NCBI GenBank assembly: GCA_030592145.1
Contig: JAUVKJ010000031.1
Location: forward strand, 1-10,603
Direction of reading: 5' to 3'
Source: Bacteroides sp.
GTDB lineage: Bacteria > Bacteroidota > Bacteroidia > Bacteroidales > SM23-62
DNA: 10,603 nt
A model generated the notes under the pieces. That model made no database searches, had not been told where the DNA came from, and worked only from the letters and a program-made list of their open reading frames with translations. Positions within the stretch are counted from its first letter, which is position 1. The number at the start of each line of letters is the position of its first letter. This document shows, in pieces, positions 7,035 to 10,603 of the stretch. The translations under genes were made by a program, and so were the position numbers.

Positions 7035-8015
7035 ATGAAAATGAAAAGTATGTCGGATAAAATAGTATGTTTTCTCGCCTTAAGCATTATTCTTATATCA
7101 TGCGAAAAGAAAAACACTGACCCGGATAAGAATACTGGCACTGCATTTATTATTGCCTGTGATTCAGTTGCATTCGAAAGTGTATTACGGGAGATCCCCA
7201 CTAATTATATCGAAGCAGCACGCAATAATCTTCATATTGCTTACCAGCACACCTCTCATGGTACACATGTATCATACGGCTTGTTTGGACTACCTGATTA
7301 TAAAACCGGCGATGAAACACTGTTTGCCATATCAAATAATAATCCTCAAAGCGGAAAACTTGATTTCAGGGATAAAGCCATAGCTTCATATGCTGAACCC
7401 GGCACTGATGCCGCTGACCTAAGCAGGAATGAAACTGCTTTCATACAGGCAACAAGGAATTATCTTGATGATCAGGATAACTCGGAAATTAATGTTGTAA
7501 TGTGGAGCTGGTGCAATATAGCAGGGCATTATGTTGCTGTTAATTACCTTCCGGGCATGCAAACACTTATCAATGAGTACGGCGAAGGTGGAAGTAAGAT
7601 TGGAACAGGGGCAGGTCAGAGACCAAATGCTGTAACATTTATTTTCATGACCGGTCATGCTAATAAGGATAATAATGTCGGAGATAAGAAACCAAAGAAC
7701 CAGGCAGATTTAATTATTGATTATTGCATGGAAAACAAGTTTTACTGCCTGGATTATTACGGTATTGACACACATGATATGGATGGTAATTACTGGGAAG
7801 ATGCCGGTGATGACGGGAATTCCTCAACGGGAGGTAATTTCTATTCAGTCTGGCAGAATAGTCATTCAGTGGGTAATGGCTTTTATGAGAACAGATCCTC
7901 TCCCGGAGGAACTGTTACCTACGGCGCACATAATTCCCAGCATATCACAGCAAACCGGAAAGCTTATGCAATGTGGTATATCCTGGCGAGAATAGCAGGA
8001 TGGGACGGCAGTTGA
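7035..8015 (+). CDS. Lipoprotein with SGNH-hydrolase-like motifs
   Basis: This 326-residue protein has a lipoprotein signal peptide ending in the lipobox LISC, with lipidation at Cys23, so it is anchored in the periplasm or on the surface. The mature part carries a chain of conserved-looking blocks: HIAYQHTSHGTHV (67-79), NVVMWSWCN (153-161), FIFMTGHAN (203-210), YYGIDTHDMDG (241-251) and a C-terminal block from AHNSQH (298-303) to ARIAGWDG (318-325). I recall this block order from uncharacterised secreted bacterial proteins with an SGNH/GDSL-like fold, in which a late Asp/His pair would complete the active site; the usual GDS serine motif is not evident, and His/Ser of HTSHG could take its place. 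A polysaccharide esterase role is speculative. Met1, Met3 or Met6 could be the start; all give a working signal. Codon use is AT-richer than in the genes to its left. Confidence 0.82.
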   Translation: MKMKSMSDKIVCFLALSIILISCEKKNTDPDKNTGTAFIIACDSVAFESVLREIPTNYIEAARNNLHIAYQHTSHGTHVSYGLFGLPDYKTGDETLFAISNNNPQSGKLDFRDKAIASYAEPGTDAADLSRNETAFIQATRNYLDDQDNSEINVVMWSWCNIAGHYVAVNYLPGMQTLINEYGEGGSKIGTGAGQRPNAVTFIFMTGHANKDNNVGDKKPKNQADLIIDYCMENKFYCLDYYGIDTHDMDGNYWEDAGDDGNSSTGGNFYSVWQNSHSVGNGFYENRSSPGGTVTYGAHNSQHITANRKAYAMWYILARIAGWDGS

Positions 8016-8098: not shown

Positions 8099-8362
8099 AT
8101 GGATCAAACAACAATAAATGAGATCATTCATTATCTTAAAGAATCACTTATTAATAGTGGTATTAAGGTTGATTCAATTGCGTTATTCGGTTCTGCATTA
8201 TCAGGAGATATGCATGATGAGAGTGATCTGGATCTAATAACAATATCAGAAGCTTTCAGGGATAAAGATATATTTGAACGCTCCAAATTAATGTACATAA
8301 ACCGGCTTTCCATGTATATGTCTATTTTTAGTGTACACACTATGTACATAGAATTATTTTAA
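8099..8362 (+). pseudogene. Truncated MNT-type nucleotidyltransferase (MntA-like antitoxin remnant)
   Basis: The first 65 residues match the minimal nucleotidyltransferase family: LFGSALSGDMHDESDLDLITIS (29-50) carries the GS motif (Gly31, Ser32) and the paired aspartates Asp43 and Asp45 of DLD, and the continuation EAFRDKDIFERSKLM is typical of Bacteroidota MntA-like proteins. In MNT-HEPN toxin-antitoxin pairs such a protein AMPylates and silences the HEPN RNase. After Met65 family similarity stops abruptly; a full protein would go on for roughly 35-70 more residues with the third catalytic aspartate. Instead residues 65-87 (YINRL, MYMS, VHTMYIELF) are simply the translation of TGTACAT repeats at 8291-8350. 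No HEPN gene follows. It is best read as a broken gene, although a short product could still be made. Confidence 0.72.
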
Positions 8363-8431
8363 TGTACATAAATCCTTGCTTTATGCACATAGTTTGTTAA
8401 GTTTGTACATGATTAATCATATTATGTACAA
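8291..8431. promoter_or_regulatory. Phased TGTACA operator-like array upstream of fic
   Basis: Eight short palindromic sites lie in 141 bp: ATGTACAT (8291-8298), TGTATA (8313-8318), GTGTACAC (8331-8338), CTATGTACATAG (8340-8351, a perfect 12-bp palindrome), ATGTACAT (8362-8369), ATGCACAT (8383-8390), TTGTACAT (8403-8410) and ATGTACAA (8424-8431). Six keep an exact TGTACA core and two have one changed base. Centre-to-centre distances are 21, 19, 11, 20, 21, 20 and 21 bp, so the sites fall on nearly the same face of the helix. The last two are mirror images flanking another perfect palindrome, ATGATTAATCAT (8409-8420). The array ends 12 bases before the fic ATG. This is the form expected of an operator bound cooperatively by a dimeric regulator; the regulator is not proven. 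Confidence 0.75.
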
Positions 8432-8443
8432 CAATATTTGATT

Positions 8444-9541
8444 ATGGCTAAGAATGATCCGGCAATCCCATACAATATCTTGCCAAAACTGCCTCCGAAA
8501 TTTGATTTGGAAACAAAGCTAATTATGAGAAAACTGGCCGGTGCCAGAGCTGCCTTAGCTGAAATGAAAGGAATAGGTGAAATTATACCAAATCAAGCCA
8601 TGCTTATTAACACGCTAATAATGCGAGAGGCAAAAGATAGTTCGGAAATTGAAAACATCGTTACAACCCAGGATGAACTGTACATTGCTTTTGCAACAAA
8701 ACAGAAAAATATCAATTCATTGATTAAAGAAGTTTTGAATTACAGGGAGGCATTATGGTTTGGATTCAATTTGATTAGAAAAAGGGAAATATTAACAACC
8801 AACGATATAACCAGTATACAGCAAAAAATAATTGAGAATAAGGCTGGTATTCGAACACAGCCCGGAACACAGTTAAAAAATACAGCAACCGGCAAAGTGA
8901 TATATACTCCGCCAGAAGGGGAAGATATAATACGTAATTTGTTGAAGAACCTTGAGGACTACATCAATATTGATAATGATGACATAGATCCCCTTATTAA
9001 AATAGCTGTGATTCATTATCAATTTGAATCCATACACCCCTATTATGATGGGAATGGAAGAGCAGGAAGGATTATCAATATTCTTTACCTGGTGATGAAA
9101 GGATTACTTGACATTCCAATTTTGTATCTAAGTTCCTATATCATCAAGAAGAAAAAGGACTATTATCGATTACTTTCTGAAATCAGGGATAAAGACAATT
9201 GGGAGGAATGGATCAATTATATCCTTCATGGAATTGAAGAAACAGCTAATCAAACAACAATCCTTATCAAGAAGATTAAAGAGTTATTGGAAGAAACTAT
9301 TGAAAAAGTAAAAACTGAATTGCCCTCTGTTTATTCAAAGGATTTGGTGGAAACCCTTTTTGAACAACCCTATTGCAGGGTTGCTTCAATAGTTGAGAAA
9401 GGTTTGTATGAAAGAAGAACAGCCATGAAATATTTACGAGAACTCGAAAGGATTGGTGTACTTAAAGCGGTCCCCAGAGGAAACCAAATATTATTCCTTA
9501 ATATAAGGCTGTACGATTTACTTAAACAAGACTATATTTAG
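8444..9541 (+). CDS. Fic-domain AMP-transferase with inhibitory helix and winged-helix C-terminus
   Basis: Fic enzymes transfer AMP (or another nucleotide part) from a nucleotide to hydroxyl side chains of target proteins. Here the 365-residue protein has the Fic motif HPYYDGNGRAGR at 198-209, with catalytic His198, Asp202, Asn204, Arg206 and Arg209; Tyr200 replaces the usual Phe. An N-terminal inhibitory motif SSEIEN (66-71, form [ST]xxxE[GN]) places Glu70 to block ATP binding, which makes it a class II, self-inhibited Fic like the Bacteroides and Shewanella enzymes. The N-terminal region IPYNILPKLPPKFDLETKLI is typical of that class. Residues about 296-361 (KDLVETLFEQPYCRVASIV to FLNIRLYDLL) form a winged helix-turn-helix likely to bind DNA. 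The ATG at 8444 is chosen over an in-frame TTG at 8438 because family homology begins with AKNDPAIPYN. It is probably regulated through the TGTACA array directly upstream. Confidence 0.94.
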   Translation: MAKNDPAIPYNILPKLPPKFDLETKLIMRKLAGARAALAEMKGIGEIIPNQAMLINTLIMREAKDSSEIENIVTTQDELYIAFATKQKNINSLIKEVLNYREALWFGFNLIRKREILTTNDITSIQQKIIENKAGIRTQPGTQLKNTATGKVIYTPPEGEDIIRNLLKNLEDYINIDNDDIDPLIKIAVIHYQFESIHPYYDGNGRAGRIINILYLVMKGLLDIPILYLSSYIIKKKKDYYRLLSEIRDKDNWEEWINYILHGIEETANQTTILIKKIKELLEETIEKVKTELPSVYSKDLVETLFEQPYCRVASIVEKGLYERRTAMKYLRELERIGVLKAVPRGNQILFLNIRLYDLLKQDYI

Positions 9542-9970: not shown

Positions 9971-10603
9971 ATGAAAACTTTTACACCTAAAATTCACATT
10001 GCTGTATCCTTGCTAATGTCTTTTGGTCATCTGACCGGGCAGGTTGCAGAAGATCCTATTACAAATATCTATAAGGTAGGCGGCTCTTCAGAGATATATA
10101 TTGCCTATTCAACTACCGGAAACAATTTCACCAAACAGGGAGTGCTGGATGTTCCGGAAAATCTGAATGATATTACCAAAAAGGAGGATGCTCAACAGTT
10201 CAAATTTATGGAAATCAGAAAAACTGCCACAGCCACAGGCGATTTTAATGGTGATGGCACTGATGATGTCGTAACCTTGCGGGATAATACTTCGGGAGGG
10301 ATTAAAATAACAATTCCGCTCCTGGGAGAAGATTTAATTATGAATGGCCAGAAGGAATATCTCCTGGAGGAACTAAATACAATGAATTATGAGCGGTTGA
10401 GGATCTGTACGGGTTATTTCGATCAGGATCCTCAGAATGAGTTTGCAATTTGTTATGGTGGCAAGGGAGAGACAATCAGGCTCTTGCTTTTCGAAACAGA
10501 TTCAGACCTGAACATTATACTGCTCGATTCATATAATGAGATAGCCTATTGTGACTACCACTTCGATATCTCAGCCGGTGACATAGATGGCGATGGAATA
10601 GAT
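9971..10603 (+). CDS. Exported FG-GAP/VCBS-repeat protein, 5' part only
   Basis: The frame from ATG 9971 is open for 211 codons to the right edge. Residues 1-24 (MKTFTPKIHIAVSLLMSFGH through GQ) form a signal peptide with cleavage likely near Gly23-Gln24. The mature part holds calcium-loop sequences of the FG-GAP/VCBS beta-propeller type: DFNGDGTDDV (91-100) and DIDGDGID at the edge (204-211), with a degenerate one, YFDQDPQNEFAI, at about 149-160. Their spacing of roughly 55 residues matches propeller blades. Such proteins are secreted or cell-surface and bind ligands or polymers; what follows the propeller (for example an enzyme or RHS region) is out of view. It has its own promoter candidate and a palindrome in the leader, so it is likely transcribed separately from fic. 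The C-terminus is missing. Confidence 0.85.
   Translation, partial: MKTFTPKIHIAVSLLMSFGHLTGQVAEDPITNIYKVGGSSEIYIAYSTTGNNFTKQGVLDVPENLNDITKKEDAQQFKFMEIRKTATATGDFNGDGTDDVVTLRDNTSGGIKITIPLLGEDLIMNGQKEYLLEELNTMNYERLRICTGYFDQDPQNEFAICYGGKGETIRLLLFETDSDLNIILLDSYNEIAYCDYHFDISAGDIDGDGID

Follow-up and report, generated by a model that had tools for sequence, protein, structure and literature searches.

A helically phased array of TGTACA sites is the probable self-operator of a Sofic-type fic gene in Bacteroides sp.

Autorepression by a Fic protein with a DNA-binding domain is already known from CccR of Yersinia pseudotuberculosis. CccR carries this domain at the C-terminus, has two inverted boxes within the promoter of its gene, must be a dimer to repress that gene, and has its DNA helices 70.2 Å apart (PMC9755527). 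Here we analyse a 10,603-nucleotide stretch of Bacteroides sp. DNA (contig JAUVKJ010000031.1; hereafter the window, with positions counted from its first letter), in which a row of eight TGTACA-like sites stands directly in front of a Sofic-type fic gene. It forms one contig (C65) of an assembly of 2.0 Mb in 346 contigs, with a stated completeness of 72.8%. As with CccR, specific sites appear to stand directly before the gene in this locus, and, going by sequence, they change along with the helix that reads the DNA. Unlike CccR, a secreted effector with two boxes of 10 bp and 26 bp between them (PMC9755527), the window and its relatives have another word and up to eight sites at 10- or 20-bp steps, and encode a protein of a defence family.

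The window's Fic protein shares domain architecture, fold and PADLOC model with two members of the Sofic anti-phage family, SoFic of Shewanella (3eqx, 3zcn) and EcSofic (9vjc). For the operators of these two genes we relied on the literature, and the texts consulted describe no array for either; a 2023 paper gives SoFic DNA binding as not demonstrated by then (PMC10628234). EcSofic has a downstream 47-aa antitoxin, AS1, and its wild-type gene could not be cloned behind one lac operator, three in a row being needed (PMC12249575). No open reading frame (ORF) of the length of AS1 follows the window's fic, where those of at least 25 aa up to position 10000 are all of 25–29 aa. A self-operator array whose spacing is kept across phyla and whose word matches the winged helix of the toxin would be a directly testable answer to how a one-gene, auto-inhibited but leaky toxin like Sofic is silenced and then released. 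The earlier note on this DNA had given one or two operator sites as usual for toxin-antitoxin loci, but many-site operators are known there too: that of ccdAB of the F plasmid has eight sites and supports chain formation on the DNA (PMC3757116). In ccdAB the DNA is read by an antitoxin encoded apart from the toxin, and the two alternate in the chains, whereas in the window toxin and proposed DNA reader form one protein. Searches of open-licence papers, judged by title and abstract, showed no earlier description of such a helically phased self-operator array that recurs across phyla with varying words.

The site scan bore out the six exact and two one-substitution sites first described. Exact TGTACA starts at 8292, 8332, 8343, 8363, 8404 and 8425, with one-mismatch copies at 8313 (TGTATA) and 8384 (TGCACA), and the steps of 21, 19, 11, 20, 21, 20 and 21 bp were reproduced. 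The span originally given, 8291 to 8431, is one base too wide at each end (Table 1), and 13 bases rather than 12 lie between the last site, which ends at 8430, and the ATG at 8444. This ATG is the start that fits the relatives, an in-frame TTG at 8438 being a possible earlier start. The judgement that the row is too regular for chance also held: in 5000 dinucleotide shuffles of the 164-bp region, exact TGTACA averaged 0.33 copies with a maximum of 4, and 0/5000 reached the six observed, while in 1000 shuffles even the most frequent of the 64 six-base palindromes was present at most 5 times. Helical coherence of the eight sites was R = 0.967, at a best period of about 10.2 bp, and was matched by 2/20000 random eight-site placements; the two mismatched sites were the earlier reader's choice, and the six exact sites by themselves gave R = 0.977. 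The shuffles rule out chance or AT-richness as the origin of the array. The core is preceded by A in 6/8 sites and followed by T in 6/8. Over the whole window, with one mismatch allowed, 53 TGTACA-like sites were counted against 37.4 expected, a mild excess, and the seventh exact copy lies inside fic, at 8679.

The array consists of separate sites and did not arise from a duplicated unit. Its six spacers of 13–15 bases have a mean mutual identity of 37%, and Tandem Repeats Finder returned 0 rows for it; on these two grounds tandem duplication was ruled out. An RNA element was also rejected, as Rfam gave 0 matches at the gathering threshold across the whole window.

Table 1. Features of the fic locus, in positions of the window
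Feature	Position	Strand	Evidence
Probable operator array, eight TGTACA-like sites	8292..8430	.	Site scans, shuffles, counterpart arrays in relatives
fic, Sofic type, 365 aa: Fic_N, Fic (HPYYDGNGR), SoFic-like_C	8444..9541	+	
SoFic-like_C winged helix coding region, proposed array reader	9284..9511	+	SoFic-like_C match, model secondary structure
Predicted recognition helix, residues 321-336	about 9404-9451	+	Model secondary structure

Among eight relatives compared first (loci are numbered with L), L004 and L010 had TGTACA rows upstream of fic, and different repeated words were seen elsewhere. Larger samples were then drawn. In the window's phylum, Bacteroidota, 103/395 genomes had a SoFic-like match, with 106 places above the cut-off, of which 90 were taken as loci and 16 left out (11 of these 16 with an open frame of at least 340 aa); in the phylum of the L008 genome 21/299 genomes matched. 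The 99 anchored loci, minus 10 that were partial, broken or misanchored and 7 that were redundant, came to 82, and minus 4 from other phyla to 78. Among the 78, L010 is without a Fic domain and L012 without a SoFic-like_C match in Pfam. A further set (L103-L142), from which 5 duplicates and 8 partial loci were dropped, left 27 and with the 4 other-phylum loci made 31; L137, on a Persicobacter plasmid, is Bacteroidota, so that the other-phylum loci number 30. For the plasmid loci, 12 regions were taken from the 256 records with a SoFic-like protein in the plasmid collection, 161 of them from Salmonella and 178 predicted to be conjugative.

Exact six-base direct repeats were counted by distance from -180 to +10 and compared with 200 dinucleotide shuffles per locus. 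In the 78 loci they were strongly enriched at 30–31 bp (39 observed vs 11.0 expected), 40–42 bp (96 vs 15.1) and 70–72 bp (64 vs 11.5), and the 31 further loci gave the same three peaks (15 vs 3.4, 55 vs 5.0 and 26 vs 3.9, respectively). Half-turn distances were not elevated (16 vs 25.5 and 7 vs 8.3). Two control stretches, -620 to -430 (76 loci) and the coding +300 to +490 (109 loci), showed no enrichment at 30–31 or 40–42 bp; the coding control had a mild excess at 70–72 bp (21 vs 11.2, largest shuffle 22), and the peak at about 71 bp is the least clean of the three. Single loci reached p ≤ 0.05 in 32/78 and 18/31 cases, and in 1/76 and 4/109 of the controls. Fic genes without a SoFic-like domain were near background (2/21 loci passing; 9 vs 4.4 at 40–42 bp, largest shuffle 11), and nine loci of the same draw that match the domain, mostly weakly, gave 3/9. 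On sequence evidence, then, the same spacing rule precedes SoFic-like genes of several phyla.

Direct repeats at 19–21 bp were not elevated in the window's phylum (20 vs 17.9) and mildly so in the other set (12 vs 5.7). They are few, and those at 30 and 40–42 bp many, because neighbouring sites are oppositely oriented. In the AKRQ (TCGACA) class, with exact copies of each locus's best word, minus-then-plus neighbours lie 19 bp apart in 13/18 pairs, and plus-then-minus neighbours 21 bp apart in 16/27 and 11 bp in 4/27, the remaining pairs being offset variants or odd steps. The GGGTAA class has minus-then-plus steps of 21 bp (4 pairs) and plus-then-minus steps of 9 bp (2) or 19 bp (3), and two-turn steps were also seen in the ACCTTAA, CATTAA and TGTAAAG classes. 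This suggests that the unit is a fixed pair of sites, perhaps for one dimer, and that successive units are one or two helical turns apart. TGTACA equals its reverse complement, a special case that conceals site orientation in the window.

The word itself varies with the recognition helix of the adjacent protein. In the winged-helix alignment similar recognition helices go with a common word, [E/D]RRT with TGTACA, AKRQ with TCGACA, VERKA with TGTACC and YAENTA with CCTTAA or CATTAA, and matching helices have matching words across different phyla. A partial Mantel test of word similarity against helix identity given Fic-core identity, on the 90/109 loci with a usable repeated word, gave r = 0.303, exceeded in 0/2000 permutations (largest 0.132). 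Cross-set pairs shared a 5-mer in 84/148 cases at helix identity of at least 0.7, in 206/792 at 0.45–0.7 and in 119/761 below; Fic-core identity rises over the same three bins (means 0.55, 0.49 and 0.44, from the highest bin down), and the permutation models descent incompletely.

A class word was present in two or more exact copies in 21/27 AKRQ loci (TGTCGA, TGTCGC or ATGTCG; 4/82 loci of other classes), 4/6 GLGN (GGGTAA or GGGCAA; 1/103), 14/14 YAEN (CCTTAA, CATTAA or CGGTAA; 4/95), 27/35 SRxTA (TGTAAA, TGTATA or TATAGA; 3/74), 3/4 VERK (TGTACC; 0/105) and 3/3 [Y/F]ERR loci (TGTACA; 0/106). This amounts to 72/89 classed loci, with 0 to 4 loci outside each class and 20/109 loci in no class; these counts are in-sample, the class words having been picked largely from the very loci that were counted. 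A fairer test comes from loci added once the pairing was known. There, AKRQ held in 6/7, and the ten new loci L177-L186 gave SRITA 4/4, VERK/IERK 1/2 and [E/D]RRT 1/1, while none of ten tested words occurred twice in the three class-less loci among them. One of the ten, L182, has a DRRT helix and TGTACA at -57, -46, -26 and -5, and in the Fic-core tree it pairs with L041 and not with the window (support 0.91; next node 0.56).

TGTACA arrays were seen in four loci, namely the window, L004, L010 and L182, all with an [E/D]RRT helix. The earlier note had proposed to look for TGTACA and its periodicity before homologous Fic genes: the helical spacing is indeed shared, the word is not. With a different word in most helix classes, TGTACA was rejected as a general Fic operator. 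For the same reason homologous loci lacking TGTACA, which had been offered as a refutation, would have misled.

We consider it quite probable that the array is the operator of the Sofic-type fic gene and is read by the C-terminal winged helix of the same protein. The part of the original proposal that assigned the array to fic as its operator is strongly supported, because the same spacing rule is found before SoFic-like genes and the word follows the protein's own helix; the protein's DNA-binding tail very probably recognises the sites. Sofic proteins are dimers in published structures, and steps of one or two helical turns put the sites on the same face of the DNA. We infer that Sofic dimers bind the array, span adjacent sites and line up next to one another, which would produce steep cooperative autorepression of fic, and that repression would be lifted when the Sofic concentration falls. 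This would give tight control of a putative one-gene toxin without a partner antitoxin to read the DNA. The distance of 70.2 Å reported for CccR (PMC9755527) is close to two helical turns, because 20–21 bp at 3.4 Å make 68–71 Å. A bolder extension, which we think rather unlikely, is that the dimer chain on the array sets Sofic activity as well as expression, the array serving as an antitoxin made of DNA or sensing the loss of DNA when a phage infects; where a gene has arrays at both ends, these would then cage it, and through a short recognition code protein and array could move together to other words under an unchanged 10/20-bp geometry. The natural protein–DNA pairs may serve as a source for a recognition code and for the study of cooperativity, and the array signature could be used in annotating Sofic loci.

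Several observations weigh against the operator assignment or against parts of it. The single-locus test was passed only by the fractions given above, which leaves many loci undecided, and L004 and L010 fail it although their arrays are plain by eye. The class counts, as said, are in-sample. A simple promoter operator does not account for the arrays that some TCGACA-class genes have after the stop codon, in L016 and L018 as the only array. A consensus scan found no sigma-70-like promoter 5' of fic on its strand, a consensus that does not cover Bacteroidota promoters. The centres of the two CccR boxes are separated by 36 bp, a step that we did not see in these arrays, and its geometry may differ (PMC9755527). 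Finally, in viral contigs TGTACA triples at 19–21 bp steps occur in 90 stretches, away from Fic genes.

Of these viral stretches 80 were examined as loci and 13 inspected by eye. No ORF with HPFx[D/E]GNGR was found in the 80 loci, one of which had a weak match (19.7 bits) to the SoFic C-terminal profile, and the pattern scan showed no close viral relatives of the Fic protein. Several of the 13 inspected rows are near-identical 20–22 bp tandem units (e.g. L234:2361-2452, L199, L260, L190), and some of the viral rows may be iterons or insertion-sequence ends. Word and spacing by themselves therefore do not identify a Sofic array. That the window's own array consists of replication iterons, or of transposase sites at the end of an element, would agree with these near-identical units, with the 256 plasmid records that hold SoFic homologues and with the arrays that bracket some genes; we nevertheless hold it to be extremely unlikely, given the dissimilar spacers and lack of a tandem repeat in the window, the alternating orientation of adjacent sites in the non-palindromic classes, and the three window ORFs scanned (fic and those at 8099 and 7035), which match no replication or transposase family. 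Another host or mobile-element protein might instead read the array, which would stand beside fic because both travel together. The co-variation of the word with the Fic protein's own recognition helix, beyond Fic-core identity and across phyla, makes this very unlikely, even with phased TGTACA rows away from Fic genes in viral contigs and an upstream neighbour that varies among loci.

In some TCGACA-class loci an array directly follows the fic stop codon, and L014, L020, L023 and L024 have arrays on both sides. Pooled over 56 loci, downstream repeats at 40–42 bp numbered 28 vs 8.6, with 9/56 loci at p ≤ 0.05; the window's own word is absent within 300 bp after its fic. Arrays flanking a gene on both sides would suit a third alternative, in which the array works chiefly as a platform for parking or sensing: Sofic molecules bound in line there would be held in a particular activity state, loss of the DNA or of occupancy under phage attack would alter toxin activity, and repression would be secondary. 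CbFic2, a Fic enzyme also with a C-terminal helix-turn-helix, is stimulated by DNA (PMC10628234), and the C-terminal domain of EcSofic moves upon ATP binding, its contact with the AMPylase domain being needed for toxicity (PMC12249575). Activity data for Sofic with DNA were not found in the portion of the literature available, and L010 keeps both array and winged helix without a catalytic domain, which points to a pair that is useful, or persists, without AMPylation. We regard the platform as improbable.

L010, from Splendidivirga corallicola, holds an uninterrupted ORF of 201 aa (L010:2001-2603) that corresponds to the window's Fic protein minus the catalytic domain, in frame. The protein keeps Fic_N and SoFic-like_C behind an eight-site TGTACA array and is, from its sequence, a natural toxin-less, repressor-like form. 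With the sites placed in register, its array and that of the window have almost equal spacing (steps of 21, 19, 11, 19, 21, 20 and 21 bp vs 21, 19, 11, 20, 21, 20 and 21 bp); 5/8 of its sites are exact, and identity between the two arrays is 42/48 at site bases and 47/90 at spacer bases. Elsewhere the L010 genome encodes a second SoFic-like_C protein in a 377-aa open frame (L145).

TGTACA pairs of array spacing occur at 3 places in the window's genome, 2 of them within the array and one (L003) under ORFs of 185 and 118 aa. In the L010 and L004 genomes 4/4 such places lie before fic. TCGACA-N12-14-TGTCGA was found at 13 places in ten TCGACA-class genomes, 11 beside fic (judged by coordinates) and 2 away, and the reversed control pattern at 15 places in the same genomes. 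A regulon elsewhere is unsupported, as the L003 pair lies within ORFs and only 2/13 TCGACA places are off fic against 15 control places.

The gene product in the window is a predicted Fic AMPylase of the Sofic family that ends in a winged helix. The Fic_N, Fic and SoFic-like_C architecture is present, and the winged helix was found both by domain match and in the structure model, which was built from eight sequences and replaced a poor single-sequence model (pLDDT 38.6). The PADLOC SoFic model matches the protein at 387 bits. The NCBIfam equivalog NF046030 gave 448.2 bits, below its cut-off of 550, which makes the protein a relative and not an equivalog by NCBI's rule. A sequence search of PDB matched 9tb0, 9tc4, 9tch, 9tcl and 9vjc, which are absent from the structure-match list; a DNA complex may be among the SoFic entries 9tb0, 9tc4, 9tch and 9tcl.

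For the ORF at 7035-8015 (326 aa), just upstream of the locus, neither Pfam nor NCBIfam gave a match at E 0.01. The ORF at 8099-8362 is nucleotidyltransferase-like (NTP_transf_2), with a partial, sub-cut-off match to MntA-type antitoxins, which are not known as Fic partners. Its final codons overlap the first array sites, and it seems to be cut short where the fic cassette starts.
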